Below the pieces are notes generated by a model. The model saw only the letters and a program-made list of their open reading frames with translations, had not been told where the DNA came from and did no database searches. Of a DNA stretch of 21,604 nt, positions 1,147 through 17,310 are shown one piece after another. A program made the position numbers and the translations under genes. The stretch covers positions 1-21,604 of the IMG/VR virus record IMGVR_UViG_3300020190_000415. One strand, written 5' to 3'. Positions within the stretch are counted from its first letter, which is position 1. Each line of letters begins with the position of its first letter. This stretch comes from a virus.

Positions 1147-1218
1147 TTACTTGTTCATTACGTACATTGTTACTTCGAAACCGAAGCGCATTTCAGTTGC
1201 AGCTGGTTTTGTCCACAT
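1147..1218 (-). CDS. pqqA: PqqA: precursor peptide of pyrroloquinoline quinone
   Basis: A 23-codon frame from ATG 1218 to TAA 1147 encodes a peptide starting [11 protein letters not shown] and containing GFEVTMY. Klebsiella PqqA is also 23 aa and reads MWKKPAFIDLR and GLEVTLY at the same positions. Glu15 and Tyr19, the two residues that PqqE crosslinks to build PQQ, are both present at identical positions. Length, N-terminal MW-K-PA, Arg11, Gly13 and ExxxY all agree, so the call is firm despite the small size. AAGGAG lies 8 nt before the ATG. The gene has its own promoter (1342-1370), a leader of roughly 115 nt, and a terminator (1079-1110). No pqqB, C, D, E or F is in the window, so maturation would depend on host enzymes. 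PQQ is the cofactor of periplasmic methanol and other alcohol or sugar dehydrogenases. Confidence 0.9.
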
Positions 1219-2819: not shown

Positions 2820-3025
2820 TATTTCCCTTCGAACGGCGGTGTTCCACCGTTTTTAATGTACTCGTCGATCGTCCTAAGCTTTGCGTTATGTATGTTGATC
2901 GCGGTTTCACGGATATCGTCAGGTTTATCTACATGATCTAGTTTGATAAACCCACGTTCTATTAAATAGATCGCTTTATCCCAGTCCTCTGCATCATACT
3001 GGTCTTTTATTATTTCATCTTGCAT
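2819..3025 (-). CDS. Hypothetical acidic protein, 68 aa
   Basis: It starts inside the end of gp44 (16-bp overlap) and ends at the TAATG shared with the membrane-anchored gene. The protein is acidic and probably helical (DAEDWDKAIYLIERGFIKLD), with a repeated Ile/Asp-rich pattern and a C-terminal GGTPPFEGK. There is no signal, membrane helix or known motif. Overlaps on both sides tie its translation to gp44 and onward to gp62. Family unknown. Confidence 0.7.
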   Translation of the reverse strand: MQDEIIKDQYDAEDWDKAIYLIERGFIKLDHVDKPDDIRETAINIHNAKLRTIDEYIKNGGTPPFEGK

Positions 3026-3945
3026 TGTGCCATGATCTCCGTTAGTGCAGCCATGAGGTTTACTTCATGATCTGCTACGAATGCAGCCTTATACTGATAA
3101 TCGGCAAGTATCAATACTAGTTGAGGTATACTCGCTGCTTCTATGTTCACAGAAGACGTGTCGTATAGCTGCCTAAATATATTTATAGTATCTGAATCTC
3201 CATTCTTAGCTACCCATTTCCTAACTTCTGTGTAGTTTTTATCTTTGAGGTTAGTGATGAGTTGTTTGAATGACTCTTCAGTTACATTTAATAATATGCC
3301 TGAGTCGATCTTACCAGACACAGAATAACGTTGTAGTTCATTTAGTACACGTCTCCAATCTGGAAAGTGTTTAGTCACTAACTCTGCTACAACTTTTTGA
3401 TCTGCTACAATATTCTCTTGAGTAAGTATATTCATTACTCGTTTAAAGAACGATGAAGCAATTTGTTGCTTTTCATTATTCTCGATCTTGAAATCAATCA
3501 CACTACACCTTGAATGGAGAGGATCAATGATTCGGTTCTTATAGTTACACGTAAAGATGAAACGACAGTTGTTAGAGAATTCTTCGATGAAAGCTCTAAG
3601 AGCTGGTTGTGTAGAGTTTGGGTTTAGATAGTCTGCTTCGTCTAGTATGATGACTTTCTTTGAGTCAGTCAAAGATACTGTTGAGGCAAATGATTTGATC
3701 TTGGTTCTGAGTACGTCAATACCTGATTCCTCAGACCCGTTGATGAGTAGGTATTCGGCACCTATCTCGTTACATAATGCTTTGGCTACAGTGGTTTTAC
3801 CTACACCTGCTGTACCACAAAACAAGAAGTTTGGTAGTTCACCAGTTTGGACGAACTGCTTAAATGTTTCTTTTAAGTTCTTTGGTAAGACACAATCGTC
3901 GATCTTTTGTGGACGATACTTCTCCACCCATAAGTATTCTTGCAT
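3010..3945 (-). CDS. 44: Clamp-loader large subunit gp44 (AAA+ ATPase)
   Basis: gp44 is the ATPase that opens and loads the gp45 clamp. In order it has the N-terminal LWVEKYRPQ typical of clamp loaders (residues 5-13), Walker A GTAGVGKT (44-51), Walker B VIILDEAD (98-105), and the arginine-finger SRC motif (145-147). These are followed by a lid and a helical collar domain. The length of 311 aa is close to T4 gp44 (319 aa). It follows gp45 by 18 bp and precedes two small genes and then gp62. Every key residue is intact. Confidence is high from motifs and neighbours together. Confidence 0.96.
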   Translation of the reverse strand: MQEYLWVEKYRPQKIDDCVLPKNLKETFKQFVQTGELPNFLFCGTAGVGKTTVAKALCNEIGAEYLLINGSEESGIDVLRTKIKSFASTVSLTDSKKVIILDEADYLNPNSTQPALRAFIEEFSNNCRFIFTCNYKNRIIDPLHSRCSVIDFKIENNEKQQIASSFFKRVMNILTQENIVADQKVVAELVTKHFPDWRRVLNELQRYSVSGKIDSGILLNVTEESFKQLITNLKDKNYTEVRKWVAKNGDSDTINIFRQLYDTSSVNIEAASIPQLVLILADYQYKAAFVADHEVNLMAALTEIMAQCKMK

Positions 3946-3963
3946 AATAACTCCATGATATAA

Positions 3964-4629
3964 TTAAATCTCAAATGTACTATCTGCTTCAATCGCTACA
4001 TAATAAATTAAACTATTGATACTTTGTGACACAAAACGAGAGATCTTTTTAGACGAGATCGATACGTCATAGTTGCCACTGATCAGTTTAAGGTTATCAA
4101 CTTTGATGTTGACTTTGAATACTAAAGATGATGGACAGATGTCATATTGATATGAGTTAGCTGTCTTATTCTTTTTATCAGACACTACTACTGATATTGT
4201 TGTACCATTACCAACGAATGACACGTCTGTAGCTTTAAGTAATGGTGCAGTCTTAAGGATATTATTTAGTACAGCTGAGTCAAGCTTAAACTCGATCTCT
4301 GCTTGTGGAAATACGATGTCCTTCTTAGGAGCAACGATTGCTTCTTCTGAAGCTTTGAACCATTTAATAGAGCTATTACCTTCTTTGATTAACAATGTCT
4401 TGTCATCAAAAGTTAAGTTCGGATCATTGAATAATGATAGAGCACCAAGCAGCTCGTTCACGTCATAGATACCGAACTGTTCAGGAAATGTTTCAGCTAC
4501 CGTTACTGTAGACATGATCTCAGAACCTACAGCTATAGTAGAGATGGTATTTCCAGGTTTAAATAATAAGTTGCTGTTGATGTTTGCATAGTTTTTAATT
4601 ATACTGAGCGTCTCTTTACTTAGTTTCAT
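3964..4629 (-). CDS. 45: DNA polymerase sliding clamp gp45
   Basis: gp45 is the trimeric processivity clamp for phage DNA polymerase and, in T4, the mobile activator of late transcription with gp55 and gp33. The 221-aa protein (T4: 228 aa) begins MKLSKETLSIIKNYANINSN and has the gp45 pattern LLFKPGN, FGIYDVNELLGALSLFNDP and a middle FKASEEAIVAP segment. It ends with an Ile/Tyr-rich strand region (YYVAIEADSTF). There is no catalytic motif, as expected. It overlaps the preceding small basic gene by 14 bp and is followed by gp44. Gene order (45-44-62-regA) supports the call. The gp55 sigma factor it would partner in late transcription is encoded at 12597-13154. Confidence 0.95.
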   Translation of the reverse strand: MKLSKETLSIIKNYANINSNLLFKPGNTISTIAVGSEIMSTVTVAETFPEQFGIYDVNELLGALSLFNDPNLTFDDKTLLIKEGNSSIKWFKASEEAIVAPKKDIVFPQAEIEFKLDSAVLNNILKTAPLLKATDVSFVGNGTTISVVVSDKKNKTANSYQYDICPSSLVFKVNIKVDNLKLISGNYDVSISSKKISRFVSQSINSLIYYVAIEADSTFEI

Positions 4630-5652: not shown

Positions 5653-5997
5653 TTACGGCTTTAGACCGTACTCCTTGATCACGTTATTTAATAATGGTGA
5701 GAACCTTGTTAGGTCAATCACCGCTTCTACTTTTCCACTGTGATAGTCCTGCAATTCCGAGTCAGTGGGCCTCGGAAATTTGTAAACACCTTTTGCTACT
5801 TTGTTTTCTGATACGATTAACCAATTAGGATAACCTAACTTAGGACATCCTGAGTCACGTTTACTAAGCATGATCTTATGGTAATCTTGCATCTCAATTA
5901 ATTCAATCTCGTCTGCATCATGATCGAAGCGATTCATCACCTCGATCACGTACATTTTCTGTGTTGGCTTCAGTTCCTTAAATTGCATTGGATCCAT
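5653..5997 (-). CDS. Hypothetical protein, 114 aa
   Basis: It starts inside the last codons of the MoxR-like gene (20-bp overlap; a second ATG at 5988 is equally placed) without a good ribosome site, so its translation probably depends on the upstream gene. The sequence looks like a compact alpha/beta protein: KMYVIEVMNRFDHDADEIEL, a single CPKLGYPNW segment, and a Leu/Asp-rich end (VIDLTRFSPLLNN). There is no membrane helix or known active site. I do not recognise the family. Linkage to the MoxR-VWA pair suggests a shared role. Confidence 0.7.
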   Translation of the reverse strand: MDPMQFKELKPTQKMYVIEVMNRFDHDADEIELIEMQDYHKIMLSKRDSGCPKLGYPNWLIVSENKVAKGVYKFPRPTDSELQDYHSGKVEAVIDLTRFSPLLNNVIKEYGLKP

Positions 5998-7213
5998 TCG
6001 GTATAGTTGGTGTTACCGTTTGACCAGCTGTCGCAGCATTATAAGCATCGCTGATAGTGTAGGCTGCAGCATCACTTATAACTGGTTCATCACCTAAGTT
6101 AACTACTTCTGGTGGAGGGTTCGAGATCTTATCGAACACATCCATGAATGCAGCTTTGGTTTGTGGATCAAAACGGTTACAACATAACTGGATAGCTTTG
6201 TCCTTCTTTTTGAAGATGCTGAACGCACGTACGATGTGAGTCATACGACGTGTTGTAATGGTCTCGTCTACACCTCCGTCTTCGAACGTACGACGGATTG
6301 CATCAGCCCATTTAATAAGGGTGTCTGCAAAGTCTTGGTCCTCACAGTTATAGTGCTTCATGAGGTTCTTAACGATCTTCATTTCGGTCGCTGCGTTAGG
6401 ATACTCTTGTTCGAATGTCACTGCGAAACGCTCTAAGAATGCTTCGTTAAGTACGTTTGTACCGATGTATCGACCATCGTCTGAACCTTTACCCTTTGTG
6501 TTAGCTGTAGCAATGATATTGAAACCACCAGCTGGAACGATTACCTCGTTCTTAAGCTTGAAGTAATAAGGCTTGCCTTCGAGTATAGGTTGTAAACACA
6601 ATAGTGTGTTAGCTGAACCAGCATCGATCTCGTCAAGTAGTAGTGTGTAACCATTACGCATAGCTACGAGCACTGGACCCTCGACGATTTGTACGTTACC
6701 ATCAACGAGTGTCTTAGCACCGATGAGTTGCTCTTCGTCAGACATCATGTTAAGATTAACACGGATGAGTGGCTTTTTGAACTTAGCACAGATCTGCTCG
6801 ATCATGGTTGACTTACCGTTACCAGTAGGACCAGCGATGTAGGCTGGATAGAATAGACCAGCTTTGATGATGGTCTCAAGATCCGTATAGTTGCCGAAAG
6901 GTACATAGTTAGGATCTTTGGCTGGGATCAATGTCTCAGGCTTTTCGAAGTTTACGATAGCTTCGCTTTTGATTTGTACTGGAGTATTTACCACTTTAAG
7001 CACAGGTTTTGGAATGTGTGTAGGCACCTTCACGTTATAAACACCACGTGATACTTGACCAGCGATCATGAACCAAGGCATGGTATCATAACCTAATGAA
7101 TTTACCACTGCCATCAGATCCGTCTTACTGATCTCAGGCTTTTTAGCCAGGGCTGGATAAGTCTCGAATAGCTTTGCTTGGAGTTCAAGCTTTTGTTCAC
7201 TTTTATATCTCAT
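5978..7213 (-). CDS. MoxR-type AAA+ ATPase, phage 'CobS' class
   Basis: This 411-aa protein has an N-terminal domain of about 110 residues that includes a SLGYDTMPWFMIAGQ stretch. An AAA+ core follows with Walker A GPTGNGKST (about 127-135), Walker B TLLLDEID (about 188-195), sensor 1 IIATANT (about 235) and an ERF arginine-finger region. Such ATPases are commonly annotated cobS in T4-like cyanophages. CobS with CobT forms the cobalt-inserting chelatase ATPase in vitamin B12 synthesis, but MoxR-VWA pairs more generally remodel or activate target proteins. The upstream gene is its VWA partner. It has its own TGTACA-17-TATAAT promoter. A true B12 role is not shown by sequence. Confidence 0.88.
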   Translation of the reverse strand: MRYKSEQKLELQAKLFETYPALAKKPEISKTDLMAVVNSLGYDTMPWFMIAGQVSRGVYNVKVPTHIPKPVLKVVNTPVQIKSEAIVNFEKPETLIPAKDPNYVPFGNYTDLETIIKAGLFYPAYIAGPTGNGKSTMIEQICAKFKKPLIRVNLNMMSDEEQLIGAKTLVDGNVQIVEGPVLVAMRNGYTLLLDEIDAGSANTLLCLQPILEGKPYYFKLKNEVIVPAGGFNIIATANTKGKGSDDGRYIGTNVLNEAFLERFAVTFEQEYPNAATEMKIVKNLMKHYNCEDQDFADTLIKWADAIRRTFEDGGVDETITTRRMTHIVRAFSIFKKKDKAIQLCCNRFDPQTKAAFMDVFDKISNPPPEVVNLGDEPVISDAAAYTISDAYNAATAGQTVTPTIPNGSNAI

Positions 7214-7245
7214 AATATAGTTCTCTCCTTATTTAATATAAAACC

Positions 7246-7274
7246 ATTATACCCTAAATATGATTTAATGTACA
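7246..7274 (-). promoter_or_regulatory. Promoter of the MoxR-type gene
   Basis: TGTACA (7274-7269), 17 bp beginning TTAAAT and ending GGG, and TATAAT (7251-7246), all on the minus strand. It lies within the 35-bp repeat shared with the promoter before the VWA gene. Confidence 0.8.
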
Positions 7275-7297
7275 TAGGCCCTAAGTTATTGATTTTA
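7263..7297 (-). repeat. 35-bp direct repeat, copy 1
   Basis: The 35 bp at 7263-7297 are identical, in the same orientation, to 9447-9481. The shared block contains the TGTACA -35 box, a GGGCCTA element and ATCAATAACTTA. The two copies bracket the whole VWA gene. Confidence 0.9.
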
Positions 7298-7310
7298 ATG
7301 GATATATTCA

Positions 7311-9407
7311 TTAAGCTACCAAGCCTATGAATTGATTAAGTAATATACGACTGGTCTTCTTATTTGAGAGTACTTTGGTAAGCTCCCGGGCGATCCTGGC
7401 AGCACTCTCCTTGGTACCTATATTAAGCTCTTTATCCTCTTCAATCTTAGTCTTGGATTCAGCCACTATGAAGAGCTCGTCACGACCTGTATCCTTAAGG
7501 GTCGTAAAGCCGTTACGTCTCATGTCTCGCTTCATGGTCTCAATAGCTGAATAATAACTAGCTTGTGAAGTATAACCATAATGTGTAGACATAGCCATCA
7601 CTAATGATCTATATGAAGGACGAGTGATGTAAAATCCTACAGTAGTGATAGCGTATCTATCTTTGATCATCTGTAGTAGTGACTTAGTTTGCTCTGCGCT
7701 GTCATTCATAGGATAATGTTTATGAGTCACTGTATCAGATATGAATGGTTTAGTAGTCACATAATCTTTGTTATCAACGAATGTCCTGCGTGAACTGACT
7801 ATGTCATAGCCTGTTCTTATACGTTCACCTTCGCCATCAGTCAGCGTGATGAGTGTCGTTTTTTCTATGCCGTTCTTATTCTTAAATTCAGGGATGTAGT
7901 TGTATAACCATGCTAACGCTGAGTTGAGTGGTGTACCAGATGTCTTGAAGTTACCAATATTGTTAAAGTATCTTGATAATGTGATAGTTATCATCTTGTT
8001 GAATTCTGATTGAGACATCTTAGATGAGAATAACTCCATCATCACAAGACCATACGTATCTACTTCTTTATCGCTGTATAGTTGTTTACGACTGCCATCA
8101 TCGTTTCTATAGCGACGATCATCCCATCCATTAGTGAATGCAAATACTTGGAATGGGATCTGAGCACCGCGACAAAACATTGCTAATGAGATGACTTGTT
8201 CTAATGTAGGACGTAATACACCGTCCATAGAAGCTGACCAATCCAATAAGAATATCATACCATGGTTCTTACCGTTAGGGATAGTCATGACTTGTTTGAA
8301 GATGTCATCGTTGAGTTTATATGCATAAAGCTTTTTACCGTCTAATGAACCTGTCTTAGCGATCTTAGCACGCTTATAGTTTTGTGCTGACTTACGCATC
8401 TCAAATTCTTTTATAAGATAGTTAACGATATTTTTTGAACCAGCTTTGAACTTCTCAGCGCGTTCGATATCGTCTTGAGTAATAAGCTTATGGTTATTAA
8501 GCTCATCTTGATACTCAGAATGTTGCTTGAACACTTCGTTATAAGTTACCAAAGGATTTATTTTAAATTTAGGGATTGTAATGTACTCATACCTAACTGA
8601 TGTATCAGCAAGCTCATCGATCTTATTCTTAAGTGACTTTTCTGTTTGCGATTCAAGCATATCTTCGAGGCTGTCTTCAAGATCTTTTAATGGATCTTGC
8701 TTAGTTGATGGTGATGGTTGACTTTGCTCTTCAGTCTCTTCTAAGTCTTCAGTCTCATCAGCTTCGAACTGTTGTGTGTTATCTTGCTCTTCGTTCTCTT
8801 CGTCATCAAACTCGTCGTGTTGATCTGATTGAGATTTCATCTCTTCGATCTTGTCTTCCATAGCTTGCTTAGAATAGTCATAAATCTCTTTAGCTAGATT
8901 GATGACATCATCACATGTTTCAGTCTCTTCAGCACGTCTTACGTAAGCTTTCTCTACTTCGTCAAACGTTACTCCGCATGAGTAACCAGCTTTGAAATAT
9001 AGGTTGATCTTATCGATCAACAACATGTCTTTGAAACCATTAGCTACACCAAAGAAGTCGCGATCGTTAAGTTCTTTGTAACCTAAGTTGAATGACTTAC
9101 GAAGACCAGGATATCTGCGCTTCATAAGTTTTTCAATACGAACGTCCTCAAGCACATTCATGTAACCTGAGAAGTGTGGTGTGTTTTTATAAGGGTTGTT
9201 TGTTACGTATGCTTCCTCAGTAGTATATAAAGCATGACCAACTTCGTGACCTACTAACATGTCGAGTAAGTCTTGTGTCATGTCCTTCCACTGAGGAAGT
9301 CTTAGTGTACGGTTTACGATGTCAAACGAAGCAGTACTAACTGGAGCTTGTACCACAGTTAGGTTTTCATTTGCTAATAATTTTGCTACTAAGTCAATTT
9401 TTGTCAT
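7311..9407 (-). CDS. Zincin-like plus VWA-domain protein, phage 'CobT' class
   Basis: This 698-aa protein has three parts. The N-terminal region carries HEVGHALYT (His54, Glu55, His58), a zinc-metalloprotease HExxH motif. Residues about 190-245 are an acidic low-complexity linker rich in Asp, Glu and Gln. The C-terminal half is a von Willebrand A domain with the metal-ion site DWSAS (about 388-392) after LLD, a later threonine in TSGTPLN, and TLTDGEG. CobT of B12 chelatases has the acidic linker and VWA layout, while the HExxH part is not needed for that job. With the MoxR-type ATPase just downstream it forms a MoxR-VWA pair. Catalysis by the HExxH site is unproven. Promoter and ribosome site (GGAG) are clear. 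Confidence 0.87.
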   Translation of the reverse strand: MTKIDLVAKLLANENLTVVQAPVSTASFDIVNRTLRLPQWKDMTQDLLDMLVGHEVGHALYTTEEAYVTNNPYKNTPHFSGYMNVLEDVRIEKLMKRRYPGLRKSFNLGYKELNDRDFFGVANGFKDMLLIDKINLYFKAGYSCGVTFDEVEKAYVRRAEETETCDDVINLAKEIYDYSKQAMEDKIEEMKSQSDQHDEFDDEENEEQDNTQQFEADETEDLEETEEQSQPSPSTKQDPLKDLEDSLEDMLESQTEKSLKNKIDELADTSVRYEYITIPKFKINPLVTYNEVFKQHSEYQDELNNHKLITQDDIERAEKFKAGSKNIVNYLIKEFEMRKSAQNYKRAKIAKTGSLDGKKLYAYKLNDDIFKQVMTIPNGKNHGMIFLLDWSASMDGVLRPTLEQVISLAMFCRGAQIPFQVFAFTNGWDDRRYRNDDGSRKQLYSDKEVDTYGLVMMELFSSKMSQSEFNKMITITLSRYFNNIGNFKTSGTPLNSALAWLYNYIPEFKNKNGIEKTTLITLTDGEGERIRTGYDIVSSRRTFVDNKDYVTTKPFISDTVTHKHYPMNDSAEQTKSLLQMIKDRYAITTVGFYITRPSYRSLVMAMSTHYGYTSQASYYSAIETMKRDMRRNGFTTLKDTGRDELFIVAESKTKIEEDKELNIGTKESAARIARELTKVLSNKKTSRILLNQFIGLVA

Positions 9408-9429: not shown

Positions 9430-9458
9430 ATTATATCAAAAAGGCTATTTAATGTACA
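9430..9458 (-). promoter_or_regulatory. Promoter of the VWA gene
   Basis: TGTACA (9458-9453), 17 bp beginning TTAAAT, and TATAAT (9435-9430) on the minus strand, about 23 nt before the VWA start codon. It shares its -35 half with the 35-bp repeat. Confidence 0.8.
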
Positions 9459-9830: not shown

Positions 9831-11549
9831 TTAAGAATTTGTTACTACGGTGGAGAAGTCGTTTGTCTTTTCAAAGCGGATGTTGTTCTTAAACTTATCA
9901 AGGAGCACATCGCCTTTATGGGATATGACGAACACATTGGTGTTTTCTCCAAGTGTATCCATCACTGATAGGAAATAGTCAGTACCCGCCACATCAAGAC
10001 TAGAGTCGAATATCTCGTCTAGTAATAATAGGTTGGTGTTGACTGAGTTTTTCATCTTAGCTATCTGGCGCCAAGTAAATAGGATTGCCAAGTCGATACG
10101 CATCTTTTCTCCTTCTGAGAACGAGGCATACGTGAACTCATCTCTAAATCTAGATTTAATTGTTTCATTAAAAGATTCGTCGAGCTCGAACTTAACAAAG
10201 AAGTCCATTGCTGAGAGGTACATGTTAATCAACTTGTTCATAGCTGGTAAGTATTCACGAATGATCGTGGTCTTGATACCAGTGTCCTTAAGTAATACGC
10301 TTGCTATCTCTTGCAATTGTTTTTCTTTAACAAGAGTCATCTTTACTTCATTCTTTTGTAGAGCTTCATTAGCTAGTGTTTTGATCTTATCTTTCTCTAC
10401 ATCGATATCGCCTTGTACAGATAACTCAGTGATCTCTTTTTCAAGCTGATTGTTTGCTTTCATAAGCATGTTCATCGCGTTGATCTCTGTTGAGATTAAG
10501 ATGTTCTTATCTTGTATTTGATTAAGTATGCCTTGCTTCTCTTGTAAGTCAATGCTCAACTTAGCATAAGCAGAATTAAGTGTATCCATATTATTAGTGA
10601 TCTGCTGTTTACTTTCAGTTATCTTACCGATGATCTTATCTTTATGTTCGTGTTGGATGCCTTGCTCACACGATGGACACGTCTCATTACTGGTAAAGAA
10701 CTCGATGTGTTCATCAACTTGTGCAAGCTTCTGTGATAACTTATTCATGTTTGATTTACATGTGTCGATATTTTTATCTACATCAAGCTTATCTATTAAC
10801 TTAGTGTTCAACTCTTCAATGTCTTTATTGAGTAGATTTACAAGATGTGTCTTATCATTTATCTCTAAGATGTTAGTACCGATTTTATCTCTTAAGACTT
10901 TAACGTTTTGATCTTTAGAGTGTTGTAGAGAATCGATCAAACTCTTTTGAGCTTTAGCTTGTTCAGTGATGATACGTATCTCTGTCTCAACAGAAGTTAG
11001 TTCCTCTTTGTTTTCTACCATCTTTTCTTTAAGTATAATATTCATAGTAGAGAATACTTTGATGTCAAGGATATCTTCAATGACTTCACGACGTTGCCAC
11101 ACAGGTAACTGCATGAACGGTACAAAGGAAGCAGACCCTAATATCACGACTTGGGTAAACGTTTTATAATTAAGTTTTAGGATCTGCTGTTCGAGCACTT
11201 TTTGATAATCTTTTACAGCCGCGTCTTGATTGATGATGGTGCCGTTTTGATATATCTCAAAGATATTTGGTTTGATCCCTCGCACCACACGGTACTTAGT
11301 GGGACCAATATCAAACTCAATCTCAACCACACAGTTCTTTTGGTTGATAGAGTTTACTAGTTGATTCTTGTTGACGTCTCTAAATGGTTTATTGAACAGT
11401 GAGAAGGTAAGTGCATCAAGGATAGTAGACTTACCTTCACCGTTTTTCCCAACGATTAAGGTTGTTGAGTGACCATTTAGTTCGACTTTATTTGGGACAT
11501 TACCAGTTGATAAAAAGTTTTTCCAACTGACAGACTTGAATATAATCAA
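9831..11549 (-). CDS. 46: Recombination endonuclease subunit gp46 (Rad50-like)
   Basis: gp46 with gp47 forms the T4 Mre11-Rad50-type complex that resects DNA ends for recombination-dependent replication and degrades host DNA. The 572-aa protein (T4: 560 aa) has an N-terminal Walker A GKNGEGKST (34-42) and a long coiled coil with a central zinc hook CPSC (about 289-292). The ABC signature FSEGEKMR follows at about 476-483, then Walker B LLLLDEIFD at about 507-515. All ATPase residues are intact. It starts by overlapping gp47 by 4 bp. No clear terminator follows; the roughly 150-bp gap after it holds a GC-rich stretch with TTTTTT and the promoter of the 60-aa gene. Confidence 0.96.
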   Translation of the reverse strand: MIIFKSVSWKNFLSTGNVPNKVELNGHSTTLIVGKNGEGKSTILDALTFSLFNKPFRDVNKNQLVNSINQKNCVVEIEFDIGPTKYRVVRGIKPNIFEIYQNGTIINQDAAVKDYQKVLEQQILKLNYKTFTQVVILGSASFVPFMQLPVWQRREVIEDILDIKVFSTMNIILKEKMVENKEELTSVETEIRIITEQAKAQKSLIDSLQHSKDQNVKVLRDKIGTNILEINDKTHLVNLLNKDIEELNTKLIDKLDVDKNIDTCKSNMNKLSQKLAQVDEHIEFFTSNETCPSCEQGIQHEHKDKIIGKITESKQQITNNMDTLNSAYAKLSIDLQEKQGILNQIQDKNILISTEINAMNMLMKANNQLEKEITELSVQGDIDVEKDKIKTLANEALQKNEVKMTLVKEKQLQEIASVLLKDTGIKTTIIREYLPAMNKLINMYLSAMDFFVKFELDESFNETIKSRFRDEFTYASFSEGEKMRIDLAILFTWRQIAKMKNSVNTNLLLLDEIFDSSLDVAGTDYFLSVMDTLGENTNVFVISHKGDVLLDKFKNNIRFEKTNDFSTVVTNS

Positions 11550-12604
11550 ACAACCTCCTGGTTAATTGCTTCAATATATAGGGATTTTACGAAAGATTTA
11601 ATAGCTTCTTTATCTCCTTCCGTTTGGATGGAATCAATGTAATTACCAAGAATGCTAACAGTATCTTCCAAATTAATCTCAGAATCAATGGTACCTTCGT
11701 TGAACTCTGATAAGTCTTCGATGATCTTAACTTCATATGGTTGTTGTTCGTATAGTGTGTTAACAAACCTATCAAATTTATATAGATCGGTTTTATTTAT
11801 AACAACTAACTTAATATACTTATCCTTTATTTCAATTGTTGTAAGATCGATTGGTTCTACATCTTTATCATTATACTCGATCTTTTCATGTATAGTGAAT
11901 GGGTTTTGGATAAACTCTAGTTGTCTTGTCTCTGTATCAAACACTGAGAATCCTTTTAGATCTCCAGCATCTTGCCATGTCATCTCGTACGGTGTACCAA
12001 TGTACTCTATGTTTTCTGCTTTTGATCTTGTATGATAGTGACCAGATAATACTCGTTCATACTTTGCAAACATCTCATGAGATAGTCCCTCTTCTGCATA
12101 CATGCCGCGATGCATAGGAAATCCAGCTAATTCAAAATGACCAAGACATAGTTCAGATTTACTATTATCGATGAACTTGAATACTTTATCCTCGTTCTCT
12201 TTACATATCCATGGTATAAGATCAATGCTTGCATTATCTTCATGTATACGAGTAGGTTCATCTATGACAAGTATGTTATCGTATTCACCTAAGATCAATG
12301 ATTGTGCATTAACAGCTAGCGACTCTTTCCAAAATATATCATGGTTGCCAAGGAGTGTTATGAGTTGGATACCTCTGGCCTCTAGTTCATTAAAGAAGTA
12401 TCGTTTGCATTCTGCTAGGGTATTGAAGTTAATGAACTTGCGACGATCGAATAGATCTCCTAGTTGATATATAGCCTTGATATTATGCTGTTGCATGTAA
12501 GGAAATAAGCATTGACTATAAAACTTCTCATAGTAAGAATGAAACTTGAGAGAATCTCCTCTTACTCCAAAGTGGGTGTCGCCCAAGATGATTAGTTTAC
12601 TCAC
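11546..12604 (-). CDS. 47: Recombination endonuclease subunit gp47 (Mre11-like)
   Basis: The nuclease partner of gp46. Metallophosphoesterase motifs appear in order from the N-terminus: LGDTHFG (residues about 7-13), QLGDLFDRR (about 47-55), LLGNHDIF (about 85-92), GHFELAG (about 155) and SGHYHTRS (about 187-194). Together they form the two-metal site. The frame is open to a TTG at 12619, but I chose GTG 12604 (352 aa). GAGG lies 9 nt before it, the protein then begins MSKLIILGD like other gp47 proteins, and GTGAGTAA overlaps the gp55 stop neatly. T4 gp47 is 339 aa. Gene order 55-47-46 matches cyanophage-type T4-like phages. Confidence 0.95.
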   Translation of the reverse strand: MSKLIILGDTHFGVRGDSLKFHSYYEKFYSQCLFPYMQQHNIKAIYQLGDLFDRRKFINFNTLAECKRYFFNELEARGIQLITLLGNHDIFWKESLAVNAQSLILGEYDNILVIDEPTRIHEDNASIDLIPWICKENEDKVFKFIDNSKSELCLGHFELAGFPMHRGMYAEEGLSHEMFAKYERVLSGHYHTRSKAENIEYIGTPYEMTWQDAGDLKGFSVFDTETRQLEFIQNPFTIHEKIEYNDKDVEPIDLTTIEIKDKYIKLVVINKTDLYKFDRFVNTLYEQQPYEVKIIEDLSEFNEGTIDSEINLEDTVSILGNYIDSIQTEGDKEAIKSFVKSLYIEAINQEVV

Positions 12605-13154
12605 TACGTTCGTCCTCAATAAAAGTATCTAAAGTTATAGTGTCCTTCTTTTTCTTACGTTTATTTTTTATACGCTCTTCAAACTTATCATCAAACGTTC
12701 CGTGTTGTTGCATGAATCCAATAAACCCGTTATAAAAGTCATCATCGTCGTGGTTTTGTGTTTCATAGGATTCAAAAGTATTATCTCTTATGAGTTTACC
12801 ACGTATGTATGATTGTTTCTTTTCTTTTTCAATACGTCTAAGGAAAGCATAATAAATGATTTGAGTAAAGTATGAGAATGGATTAGACGATTTTTCTGGA
12901 TTAAAGTTGTCAAAATACATGATACAATTCTCTATACCATCGAGGATCATGTCATCTTTATAGGAATAATTTATGAAGTTGGGGCGATTAGCTAGTTTAG
13001 TTGCTATCTTTAATACACATTCACCAAGATAATTTGATATCGGTGGTTTAGGATCTCCACCAGATTCTGCTTCGCGACATTGCTTTTGATATTTTTTGAT
13101 CGCTTCGAGGAAGTCGACATTGTTTACGTAGTGCACCGGTTTCTTGTCCGACAT
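12597..13154 (-). CDS. 55: Late-transcription sigma factor gp55
   Basis: gp55 is the small sigma-like protein that directs host RNA polymerase to TATAAATA late promoters and contacts the gp45 clamp. The N-terminus MSDKKPVHYVNNVDFLEAI matches T4 gp55 (KPKYNYVNNKELLQAI). The middle has KDDMILDGIENCIMYFDNFN and a PFSYFTQIIYYAFLRRIEKE segment like T4's [21 protein letters not shown]. The C-terminus is basic then acidic. A GTG at 13163 is in frame, but ATG 13154 has AGGTGA 5 nt before it and matches the family start. Length 185 aa equals that of T4 gp55. It has its own promoter, and late boxes that it would read occur before gp22, the tail protein and regA. Confidence 0.94.
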   Translation of the reverse strand: MSDKKPVHYVNNVDFLEAIKKYQKQCREAESGGDPKPPISNYLGECVLKIATKLANRPNFINYSYKDDMILDGIENCIMYFDNFNPEKSSNPFSYFTQIIYYAFLRRIEKEKKQSYIRGKLIRDNTFESYETQNHDDDDFYNGFIGFMQQHGTFDDKFEERIKNKRKKKKDTITLDTFIEDERSE

Positions 13155-13217: not shown

Positions 13218-14807
13218 TTAGGAACGAATAAAAAGTAATTCTACTATTACTCCTTTAGATAATAGCTCAGAAACATACTGTTCGGTTTGCAAAATAGGAT
13301 CGGGCAATCCCGGTTGTATTGGATCTCCTTCCCAATTATTGGGTGGGTGTTTTAATAAAATCCTTACATCAGAAAATCCTAAATTAATTAATGGATCATA
13401 CACATTTTGAATCAAAGATTGTTCGGATTTTATCATAGGATTTAATTCTACTATTATGGATGATACTCTATTGTCATCTAAAGTTTTGGTCATACCTTTA
13501 ATTACAAATTCTTCATGCCCTTCCACATCCATTTTAATTACTATATTCGTAGAATACGGACATATAGATTCAGAATCAATTTGTGAGGTAATTACAGAAT
13601 ATTTTGTTCCAGATGCTCTAATTTCAAGACTCGATCCGCCCATGTTATGCGGATCATCTATTAAATTTATAACATCTCCATCTGTATTTGAACACGCAAC
13701 TTCTCTGACAGTTATCCTATTTTGCCAACCATTTGCATTAATAGATGTTTTTAATAATTTACATGTAAGCGGGTGTGCCTCAAACGCTAATACTCTAGCT
13801 CCACACATTGCAGCAGTAAATGAATGTAATCCTATATTCGCCCCAATATCAATGAATAATGTTTTATTATCGCATAGTTTAGCTATCGCTGCAGCCACAC
13901 TTGGCTCCCAAGTTTTACCGCTTGCAATCTGTCTGCTTATATAATCATCGTCATTATGTGTATAACAAAGAAAATCTTTTGATCCAATAAATGGAATAAC
14001 TCTTTTAAATATTGGGAATAGATTTATATGAACACCTTGATCATATATCCATTTGGTCCTATCTTCAATTTGTTTATCAGTTAAATCATACTGTATACCA
14101 TATCCCAAATTAAATTGGTGCTTAATCCTCTCTCGAGTAGTCTGAGTTCTATTAAATTCACGTGTTTGCCCTATATATCTCCAATGAAGCATAACGGGTT
14201 TATCTATACATTCTAATGATGGTTGATTAAATTGTGGATTCCAATAATGTTGACCTACTTGAAAATTAGTTTCTACAATAGCATTAGGATTAAATATCAT
14301 TGGCTTATCATACATATAAGGATCTTTATTGATAAGCTTGTGTATTGGATCTTCTCGTAGTCCTTTAAGTGCAGATAAGTTTGGTTGTTGATGCGTTGAA
14401 AGTCTAGCTAAACAATTTTTAAATTCATCATCTTTAATAATAATTGCTATACTAATAACTGAACTGTGTGTTATTTTATTTTCTTTCCACTCAGTTAAAG
14501 CTGAAATTATATCATTTGGGTATTTTGGGAAAAAGATTAATTCATCTGTATCTGCAATAATAACATAATCAGCATGACCGCGTGACTCTTTCCATGCCTC
14601 ATTTTTCATTTTTATATTAGTTTTATCACATAGTCTATTAGTTTCTAACTGTCTAATTTCACGACCAGCTGATTTAATAATATCAATACTGTCATCAGTG
14701 CAACCTGCATCATAAAATATAATACGATCTGCCGTTTCATAATGTTTTAAAACAACACGAACTAAATCAGAATCATTCCATATTGGCATGTACACCCAAT
14801 ATTTCAT
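13218..14807 (-). CDS. Glycosyltransferase 2-like + FkbM methyltransferase fusion
   Basis: The 529-aa protein joins two enzymes. Residues 1 to about 250 look like a GT-A glycosyltransferase: an N-terminal YWVYMPIWNDSDLV strand, DAGCTDDS (about 34-41) and the metal-binding DTD in IADTDEL (about 83-89). Residues about 300-529 form an FkbM-type SAM methyltransferase: LFIDIGANIGLHSF (about 314-327, SAM motif I), AFEAHP, and IKMDVEGHEEFVIKGM (about 420-435). FkbM enzymes O-methylate sugars. The pair probably modifies a glycan, such as a virion glycan or host surface polysaccharide. It is more AT-rich and Ile/Asn-rich than its neighbours and interrupts the usual uvsW-to-gp55 stretch, suggesting later acquisition. 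AAGGA precedes the ATG. Confidence 0.85.
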   Translation of the reverse strand: MKYWVYMPIWNDSDLVRVVLKHYETADRIIFYDAGCTDDSIDIIKSAGREIRQLETNRLCDKTNIKMKNEAWKESRGHADYVIIADTDELIFFPKYPNDIISALTEWKENKITHSSVISIAIIIKDDEFKNCLARLSTHQQPNLSALKGLREDPIHKLINKDPYMYDKPMIFNPNAIVETNFQVGQHYWNPQFNQPSLECIDKPVMLHWRYIGQTREFNRTQTTRERIKHQFNLGYGIQYDLTDKQIEDRTKWIYDQGVHINLFPIFKRVIPFIGSKDFLCYTHNDDDYISRQIASGKTWEPSVAAAIAKLCDNKTLFIDIGANIGLHSFTAAMCGARVLAFEAHPLTCKLLKTSINANGWQNRITVREVACSNTDGDVINLIDDPHNMGGSSLEIRASGTKYSVITSQIDSESICPYSTNIVIKMDVEGHEEFVIKGMTKTLDDNRVSSIIVELNPMIKSEQSLIQNVYDPLINLGFSDVRILLKHPPNNWEGDPIQPGLPDPILQTEQYVSELLSKGVIVELLFIRS

Positions 14808-15327: not shown

Positions 15328-16820
15328 TAAATGTTTACCTCGTAGACTTTATAGTCAAACTTTTCCTCTGAGTATATCTTAACTCGCTCAACAAAATGAT
15401 TCAATGTGTGGTTCTTTCTAGATTTCCATTGCATATCATCTGCGATATCGTATAATTTAAGATGAGTCTTGCCATCTTTTAACCTAAGTCCTCTGCCTAT
15501 TGACTGTAAGTTCCTGATCTTAGACTTAGTGGGACTAGCAAAGATGATGTTTTCTATGCTAGGTATATTTATACCCATTGAGAACGTAGCATATGAAGCC
15601 ACTATGATGGTATTATTTCCAAGTTCGGTATTCTTGCGGATATCCTCTCGATCTAATGTCTCTACTCCACCATGCACTACATAGACGTTCTTGTCGGGGG
15701 CTTTTGCTTTAATAGCTTCATATAAAGGTATACCATGCTTCTCTACGAATTGGAATAATACAAGTGTGTTGCCTTTACATGATGTAGTAAGGTTTCGTAT
15801 GAATTTATTTCGTGCTTCGTTTAATACTAAGTACTCCATCTCTTCTTGATATGTTTGTTCTTTACAAGCCTTACGTATCTCATCTTTGTATTTTAGTACG
15901 ACACAGTTGATGTCGATCTGCACGACCTTACCATCATCCATAAGTTCTTTCGTAGTCGTAACTCTATGGACTGGCCCAAATAAACCTTCTAATGTTAATT
16001 GATTGATCTTCTTATTATCGATGGTGCCTGTAGTACCGATACGATACTTAACATGTTGCATACGTTCCATGATAGTAATCAATGATGTTGCTTTAAATTG
16101 ATGAGCTTCGTCACCAACTATAACATCAAAATTCTCAAACCATTGTTTAGGCTGTGTATAGATGGATTGCCATGTAGTGATCAATACGTTCTTAGTAAAG
16201 TCTCTTGTAAATCCTGAATATAGTTTTTGACAATTATCTTTTACCGACCATTGATTATGTGATGAGTAGTCTTCAAAGTCTGAGTACATCTGCTCTACTA
16301 ATGATGTGGTAGGTACAACTATGATCGTCTTACGATCCTCTTCAAGGTGCCATCTCATTAGACAATAGATCATGAATGATTTACCAGATGCGGTAGGAGA
16401 TAGTAAGACCGTACGATTAAGGTTTAGTGATGTCTGTACAGCGGCGATCTGATAATCACGAGCTATGATTGGTTGACCACGACCATATAGATCTAGATCA
16501 TGTATAAACTTGGTGACTTGTTCTGTTGAGTAGTTATGTAGATCTAATGGTTTTGCATATTCGTCTGTTGGATTAAATGTTAGTTCATAATTATTACGCT
16601 GTGCAAACTCTAAGACATACTGATATAAGCCTGCATATAGCGTCTTCCTGATTAATGAGTACAGTCGGACTTTGCCATCCCATAACCTAGCTTTAAACTT
16701 AGGGGTAAACCTTGCACCAGGAACCTCGTAAGTAAAGAACGATTCAAGCTCTTGCTCACATCCCGCGTCTCCGTATACACGGATGTTTACTTCATTAATT
16801 TTTTCAATGGTTAGTTTCAT
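15327..16820 (-). CDS. uvsW: UvsW recombination DNA helicase
   Basis: UvsW is a superfamily 2 helicase that unwinds R-loops and branch-migrates recombination intermediates. It switches T4 from origin to recombination-dependent replication. The protein (497 aa; T4 503 aa) has an N-terminal DNA-binding domain with FTYEVPGARFTPKFKARLWDG, Q-like RDYQ, Walker A SPTASGKS (about 139-146), DEAH in VGDEAHQF (about 233-240), TGT, and motif VI QSIGRGLR (about 437-444). All helicase motifs are complete. The frame is open nine codons upstream to 16847, but I chose ATG 16820, which forms TAATG with the uvsY stop and matches the family start. Confidence 0.95.
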   Translation of the reverse strand: MKLTIEKINEVNIRVYGDAGCEQELESFFTYEVPGARFTPKFKARLWDGKVRLYSLIRKTLYAGLYQYVLEFAQRNNYELTFNPTDEYAKPLDLHNYSTEQVTKFIHDLDLYGRGQPIIARDYQIAAVQTSLNLNRTVLLSPTASGKSFMIYCLMRWHLEEDRKTIIVVPTTSLVEQMYSDFEDYSSHNQWSVKDNCQKLYSGFTRDFTKNVLITTWQSIYTQPKQWFENFDVIVGDEAHQFKATSLITIMERMQHVKYRIGTTGTIDNKKINQLTLEGLFGPVHRVTTTKELMDDGKVVQIDINCVVLKYKDEIRKACKEQTYQEEMEYLVLNEARNKFIRNLTTSCKGNTLVLFQFVEKHGIPLYEAIKAKAPDKNVYVVHGGVETLDREDIRKNTELGNNTIIVASYATFSMGINIPSIENIIFASPTKSKIRNLQSIGRGLRLKDGKTHLKLYDIADDMQWKSRKNHTLNHFVERVKIYSEEKFDYKVYEVNI

Positions 16821-17257
16821 TACATTCCAGCTAAGAACTTTTTCCATTCAATACCGTTTTTGAGTTGCCAATCTCGGGCTTTGATTTGTCCTAAAATACC
16901 TTCGAGTAGATAACCCATGGTTTCTAGGTATTCGATCTTAGTATTTAGGTTGATAAGATCTTGGTCGCCTTGAAGGAACTCGTCCATCTCGTTCTTAAGT
17001 GGCTTGATTAGTTGATAAGGCTCCCAACCCAATTGTTGTAGCTCTTCTCTTGATAGTTCGCCTCTGTAATACCTAAACTTATTCTTACGAAGTATGTTAT
17101 AGTCAGCTCTAGCCTTTGTTAGCTTAAGCTTAACTCCAACCATTAGCTTTATGTATTTAGAATGAACCTTTGCTGTTTCAGTAGAAGCTTCACCTAGATG
17201 ATTATCATCGATGAGGCTATCTTGTTCCCACATCTGCTGAATCTCTTCAATATTCAT
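16820..17257 (-). CDS. uvsY: UvsY recombination mediator
   Basis: UvsY loads the UvsX recombinase on gp32-coated single strands. The 145-aa protein (T4 137 aa) begins MNIEEIQQMWEQDSLID (T4: RLEDLQEELKKDVFID). It has VHSKYIKLMVGVKLKLTKA (T4: LYSKWLNKHSSIKKEM), a basic KNKFRYYRGELS stretch, and ends LEGILGQIKARDWQLKNGIEWKKFLAG (T4: LDAIKSRGFAIKHIQDMRAFEAG). The order uvsY-uvsW is the reverse of T4's but normal for cyanophage-type relatives. A TGTACA-17-TATAAT promoter lies 25 nt upstream of the start. Confidence 0.92.
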   Translation of the reverse strand: MNIEEIQQMWEQDSLIDDNHLGEASTETAKVHSKYIKLMVGVKLKLTKARADYNILRKNKFRYYRGELSREELQQLGWEPYQLIKPLKNEMDEFLQGDQDLINLNTKIEYLETMGYLLEGILGQIKARDWQLKNGIEWKKFLAGM

Positions 17258-17281: not shown

Positions 17282-17310
17282 ATTATACTACATAATCTAT
17301 TTATTGTACA
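17282..17310 (-). promoter_or_regulatory. Promoter of uvsY-uvsW
   Basis: TGTACA (17310-17305), a 17-bp spacer starting ATAAATAG, and TATAAT (17287-17282) on the minus strand. It restarts early/middle expression just after the late tail-protein gene. Confidence 0.8.

Follow-up and report, generated by a model that had tools for sequence, protein, structure and literature searches.

Several described systems couple a MoxR-clade AAA+ ATPase to a partner protein bearing a VWA domain with a metal ion-dependent adhesion site (MIDAS): CobS/CobT of the cobaltochelatase CobNST (PDB 9uka), and NorQ/NorD, CbbQ/CbbO and Midasin (MDN1/Rea1), which differ in their clients. Virome papers up to 2026 class the phage versions of cobS and cobT as auxiliary metabolic genes of vitamin B12 synthesis (available passages of PMC13390420, PMC11183165 and PMC12043954), and a passage of PMC8651126 calls the label 'peptidase', also given to these proteins, a mistake. 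For the jumbo phages of group 2.2, the accessible part of PMC7824862 describes a MoxR AAA+ ATPase beside a vWA protein with an N-terminal metallopeptidase domain and proposes a role in virion assembly. Here we analyze a pair of this architecture in IMG/VR record IMGVR_UViG_3300020190_000415, a 21.6-kb virus fragment (21,604 nucleotides, henceforth the window, with the genome visible as far as its two ends). We propose, at a probability of roughly 0.5, that it is a MoxR-class AAA+ ATPase with a VWA co-chaperone to which a zincin metallopeptidase is tethered, acting at the replication/recombination stage, and not a cobaltochelatase; the predicted zincin nature of the N-terminal domain rests on sequence and a structure model. 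The architecture itself is already published for jumbo phages; what is new is its breadth across conjugative plasmids, the finding that the chelatase lineage (cellular CobT) is without the site, and the setting among replication genes, none of which we found in that part of PMC7824862.

The two open reading frames (ORFs) lie on the minus strand of the window, where the original prediction had placed them. The ATPase (5978–7213, 411 residues, phrog_249, AAA_5 at E 4e-16) is MoxR/CobS-like, with sequence matches to CobS, NorQ, CbbQ and Midasin, and both its Walker A (residues 128–135, 6809–6832) and Walker B (residues 191–197, 6623–6643) motifs are intact. It adjoins the gene of the VWA protein (7311–9407, 698 residues, phrog_459 at E 3e-175, labeled 'CobT' or 'peptidase'), which has tblastn matches in 463 phage records. 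This protein comprises an N-terminal domain with a predicted zincin metallopeptidase fold (residues 1–191, 8835–9407), an acidic linker modeled at low confidence (residues 192–250, 8658–8834, with the predicted local distance difference test score, pLDDT, below 50 at 196–238) and a VWA domain (about residues 380–650, 7458–8270). The MIDAS residues D389, S391, S393, T492 and D524 are intact (DWSAS 389–393, SGTP 490–493, TDG 523–525), which, with the adjoining ATPase, places the two genes among the MoxR AAA+/VWA pairs. Likewise intact is the HEVGH motif that had been noted near the N-terminus (residues 54–58, 9234–9248), in which H54 and H58 are predicted metal ligands and E55 is the predicted catalytic base. 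A second motif, NVLEDVRIE (residues 84–92, 9132–9158), lies in the second helix and would supply the third ligand by D88 (or E87).

The original prediction was made to hinge on the conservation of HEVGH in homologues, and it came through: HExxH is found in 86/88 viral loci (11 from a first set and 77 from a later pattern search), the other two (L029, L030) being contigs that start after the motif position. On these sequences HExxH is not a chance word, because it is present in so many loci and both misses begin downstream of it. The second motif, N-x-x-E-D-x-R-x-E, is present in 88/88 viral loci; one of the two search patterns (RIEKLMK) overlaps it, so that selection affects this count but not that of HExxH. 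In an alignment of the window protein with 60 relatives that are 31–80% identical to it, H54, E55, H58, N84, E87, D88, R90 and E92 are invariant. The motif also persists in 14 of 15 deeply diverged homologues drawn from phages of Rhizobium, Roseobacter, Gordonia, Vibrio, Bacteroides, Synechococcus and Pseudoalteromonas and, outside phages proper, from IncC and other plasmids, phage-plasmids and a Pseudomonas megaplasmid. When the window protein is aligned with 16 relatives at 15–52% identity, with the Gordonia and Paraburkholderia sequences left out, the sole invariant columns are H54, E55, H58, N84, D88 and E92. Thus, at the sequence level, the family combines HExxH with a conserved putative catalytic glutamate, as zincins do. 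In Pseudoalteromonas phage XG4 (L017, 7926–10168) the VWA and peptidase domains are two separate ORFs in swapped order; therefore, the peptidase constitutes an independent module.

Structure prediction gives a compatible picture. The full-length model of the VWA protein has a pLDDT of 77, and its VWA part best matches the MIDAS domain of MDN1 (Z 16.2), followed by the VWA domain of NorD (Z 15.3). As the Foldseek rows of this model were filled by VWA domains, the N-terminal domain was folded alone (AlphaFold2, pLDDT 91.4). The first twelve PDB rows for it are all zincins, with jannalysin on top, and in the re-aligned list 21/21 rows with Z of at least 4.6 are of the zincin type, including ArdC, IrrE/PprI, SPRTN and jannalysin. 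A zincin fold is hence likely, and not proven, because a structural Z below 8 can reflect a common arrangement. The minigluzincins (jannalysin, abylysin, selecase), ArdC, IrrE/PprI and SPRTN would share with the viral domain the fold around the HExxH helix; they differ in that the structural scores are weak and the matched structures lack an ATPase/VWA partner. N84, D88 and E92 all fall in the modeled helix 79–98. Among viral models, the N-terminal domain finds a match in a 355-residue protein of Haloarcula hispanica tailed virus 2, whose cobT is described in a passage of PMC8651126 as split into two ORFs, an arrangement resembling that of phage XG4. Sequence searches of solved structures, for which the window VWA protein and an N-terminal profile served as queries, returned chance matches alone, and CobT of PDB 9uka was absent from the Foldseek rows, from which we draw no conclusion.

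Turning to genomic context, the window has a T4-like gene order on its minus strand: gp21, gp22, gp23, gp19, uvsY, uvsW, gp55, gp47, gp46, an ORF of 60 residues, the VWA protein, the ATPase, four more ORFs, gp45, gp44, gp62, regA and pqqA, with unnamed ORFs interspersed between some of these. We take the T4 names to apply here, gp62 presumably so by its position. The nearest named neighbors are the SbcC/SbcD-like recombination nuclease gp46/gp47 (9831–12619, minus strand, phrog_77 and phrog_100) on one side and the gp44 clamp loader with the gp45 sliding clamp (3010–4629, minus strand, phrog_168 and phrog_223) on the other. Where the flank of T4-like contigs is long enough, the ATPase lies within 1.5 kb of the VWA gene in 50/63 and gp46 within 1.5 kb in 50/70; gp47 is found in 52/62, gp45 in 29/31 and gp44 in 26/31. 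The 13 loci in which the ATPase is not within 1.5 kb comprise six with the ATPase at 1.6–2.5 kb and seven from a nine-locus clade (L036, L046, L047, L053, L055, L069, L071, L077, L092). In a set of 13 annotated loci, each from a different element, a clear replication or recombination gene accompanies the pair in 10, counted over the stretches fetched: ssb-recT-exo in Providencia, ssb-bet-exo in IncC, ssb-primase-exonuclease in Thiomicrorhabdus, DnaB/primase/dnaE in Aeromonas, dnaE in three further loci, T4 genes in one other, primase-helicase-polymerase in ICP2 and a DNA polymerase in a Bacteroides phage; the context is weaker in the P. aeruginosa megaplasmid, CRP-810 and Gordonia. Three loci do not enter this count: L015, which has lost the motif and shows no ATPase, L017, which is unannotated, and L106, where the match does not fall on an annotated VWA gene. 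By this association, DNA replication/recombination is the likely stage of action.

The timing of expression, as far as it can be read from promoter-like sites, is consistent with such a stage. The window has six exact copies of TGTACA-N17-TATAAT, all of them on the coding strand: ahead of the VWA gene (9430–9458, minus strand), the ATPase gene (7246–7274, minus strand), uvsY (17282–17310, minus strand; uvsY itself at 16820–17257, UvsY phrog_231 at E 1e-38) and the 60-residue ORF, and upstream of pqqA and of the ORF starting near 956. With up to two mismatches, 17 sites are observed against 5.75 expected in the window, and the exact site is retained in only part of the relatives examined. By contrast, TATAAATA stands before gp19 and gp22, though the window contains it no more often than chance would predict. 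The pair thus looks to be expressed early or middle rather than late, because it has a sigma70-like promoter in common with uvsY, as against TATAAATA before gp19 and gp22.

These observations bear directly on the role proposed for the jumbo phages, in which the ATPase and VWA protein would be a chaperone pair whose peptidase would trim structural proteins as the capsid or tail matures. Such a role has in its favor the published proposal for the same architecture (PMC7824862, accessible part) and the head genes that the window also carries. However, gp21, the phage's own head protease, is among those genes, the promoter of the pair is unlike the element before gp19 and gp22, and the HExxH VWA protein, with an ATPase gene close by, also persists on non-viral plasmids, three of them typed conjugative (IncC IP40a, Providencia pPROV013-PER and P. 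aeruginosa pPUV-1) and one typed mobilizable (Thiomicrorhabdus pTmrp1). The presence of the pair on conjugative plasmids excludes virion assembly as a general role, and we regard it as an unlikely explanation. An earlier glimpse of this plasmid distribution comes from a 2009 study, a portion of which reports the MoxR/VWA gene set of pCAR1 as conserved in R478, Rts1, SXT and R391 (PMC2642839). Near the ATPase and VWA genes of conjugative plasmids (L013, L016, L099, L100) there is also a DUF3150 gene, a possible third part of the AAA+/VWA system.

The original prediction had left three activities side by side, namely metal loading, protein remodeling and proteolysis; the last two, as a remodeling or proteolytic machine, now make the best reading, while metal loading is less favored. 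In the latter case, the pair would be a cofactor-insertion chaperone like NorQ/NorD or CbbQ/CbbO, with HExxH carrying or inserting a metal and cutting nothing, and indeed NorD is the second-best structural match of the VWA part and the ATPase matches NorQ and CbbQ. Nevertheless, E55 would be dispensable for carrying a metal and yet is invariant in 61/61 and 17/17 rows of the two alignments, which argues for catalysis because this residue is the predicted base and not a ligand; further, no metalloenzyme is a constant neighbor in the annotated loci. We therefore hold metal loading to be as improbable as virion assembly.

Slightly less probable still is host takeover or counter-defense, whereby the machine would remove a host restriction or defense factor and the replication neighbors would be incidental. 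It could draw on the top structural Z, which belongs to ArdC, the anti-restriction metalloprotease of plasmid R388, and on the spread of the family over phages and conjugative elements. Against it, the replication-gene setting is constant and the active site nearly invariant, unlike what is expected of a fast-evolving defense gene, and two VWA proteins tested with PADLOC gave no match.

Taking the replication-stage protease machine as the preferred reading, we advance the following mechanism. The VWA/MIDAS domain would dock a client protein; the ATPase ring would remodel or pull it at the expense of ATP; and the N-terminal HExxH domain, with H54, H58 and D88 or E87 as metal ligands and E55 as base, would then cut it. 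One role of this kind might be the clearing or processing of proteins on replicating or recombining DNA. Several observations weigh against this proposal. At the active site, the Paraburkholderia homologue has lost HExxH (the one miss of the 15 deep homologues), and E87 gives way to D or V in 2 of the 17 rows, which makes the third ligand uncertain. On the structural side, the Foldseek E-values of the N-terminal domain are weak (0.045 at best) and its structural Z is modest (top 6.2, ArdC). In terms of context, no counterpart of the window ATPase is recognizable in the fragmentary records of the nine-locus clade, the T4-like synteny is largely inherited such that the loci are not independent, and the neighborhood count comes without a formal null. 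If the proposal is true, a very common marine phage gene pair is an ATP-driven protease or remodeling machine of DNA replication/recombination, and one testable in tractable systems such as the IncC plasmids.

The relationship with the cobaltochelatase itself is best seen from cellular CobT. Using a CobT motif we obtained 120 cellular loci, 79 of which gave an aligned N-terminal domain, the other 41 being truncated or without a regex match. HExxH is present in 0/79, in keeping with the earlier claim that it is dispensable for a chelatase subunit; when the open frame is scanned over its first 350 residues in all 120 loci, a single HExxH word turns up (L211), about 130 residues upstream of the aligned domain. 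Cellular CobT retains E87 (79/79), R90 (79/79) and E92 (76/79), while N84 (N in 6/79) and D88 (D in 4/79) are mostly replaced. The joint disappearance of HExxH, N84 and D88, set against the retention of E87, makes D88 the first candidate for the third metal ligand. On sequence grounds the N-terminal domains of the phage protein and cellular CobT are nonetheless homologous, as are the ATPases and VWA domains. The N-terminal link runs via the plasmid and phage set: by hhalign probability the T4-like phages match the mobile-element set at 99.95% and the latter matches cellular CobT at 97.3%, whereas the T4-like profile matches cellular CobT directly at a weak 26%. PF06213 provides a second bridge, matching a Roseobacter phage protein that has HEAGH (E 2e-15) and a pHCM2 protein (7e-33).

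That the pair supplies chelatase subunits which hijack host CobN to raise B12 synthesis (passages of PMC8651126 and of the later virome papers) is very improbable, since, against the homology, the matches of PF06213 and PF11775 to several plasmid and phage relatives and the weak match of the window ATPase to TIGR01650 (CobS), that match is 96 bits against a cut-off of 558, the VWA protein scores 19.4 bits against 759 for TIGR01651 (CobT), mobile elements lack CobN (PF02514, CobN/BchH/ChlH, in 0/20 phage and plasmid records carrying the VWA gene, with a host CobN possible and 5/14 control genomes positive), the chelatase lineage is without HExxH, and a B12 gene besides the pair is annotated in 0/13 of the loci fetched. 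Evidence for chelatase activity, which the original prediction had named as telling against it, was likewise not found. The new evidence thus sits less well with the published alternatives, B12 synthesis and virion assembly; the sequences point to 'peptidase' as the fitting label and to B12 as a poor one, which corrects a common annotation of phage cobS/cobT.

In a tree of the partner ATPase with 56 rows the 28 cellular CobS form a single group (Shimodaira–Hasegawa-like approximate likelihood ratio test 99; still a single group, at 97, upon removal of five long branches), and the HExxH state of the partner needs one change on it, though the tree lacks a known root and includes several very long branches. 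A tentative idea, to which we give about one chance in three, is that an AAA+/VWA protease machine of mobile elements gave rise to the true cobaltochelatase CobS/CobT by losing its peptidase active site, and that the pair still performs the ancestral non-B12 job in cells with CobST and without CobN (SAR11, SAR86, Caulobacter). On the cellular side, 13 of 22 tested genomes with CobT have no CobN/BchH-family match, many of the 22 being incomplete single-cell or metagenome genomes (loci L113, L119, L128, L133, L144, L147, L148, L154, L163, L174, L175, L177 and L181). The genomes without the match include every one of the six SAR11 and three SAR86 genomes tested, some sphingomonads and a Caulobacterales genome; in Caulobacter vibrioides, CobT scores above the cut-off and no CobN-family match is seen.

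A few further features deserve mention. The pqqA gene of the window is real (1147–1218, minus strand, TIGR02107 at 40.4 bits against a cut-off of 20) and may point to a methylotroph host. Its proximity had led to the suggestion of a link between the pair and methanol dehydrogenase or pyrroloquinoline quinone, with co-occurrence as the check. This link is not supported: the pqqA pattern occurs in 7/26 records with the VWA gene, all in the window's own close clade, and in 0/15 more distant ones (by DNA pattern search, with a regex also tried), and we reject pqqA as a general partner. Staphylococcus phage G1 and Listeria phage P100 encode a CobS-like ATPase, and as HExxH is in none of the eight ORFs read there, they were set aside. 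In L069, of the nine-locus clade, the HExxH-VWA gene lies near exonuclease and ligase families. Finally, upstream of gp55 in the window (13218–14807), a single ORF fuses a glycosyltransferase-like part to an FkbM methyltransferase domain.

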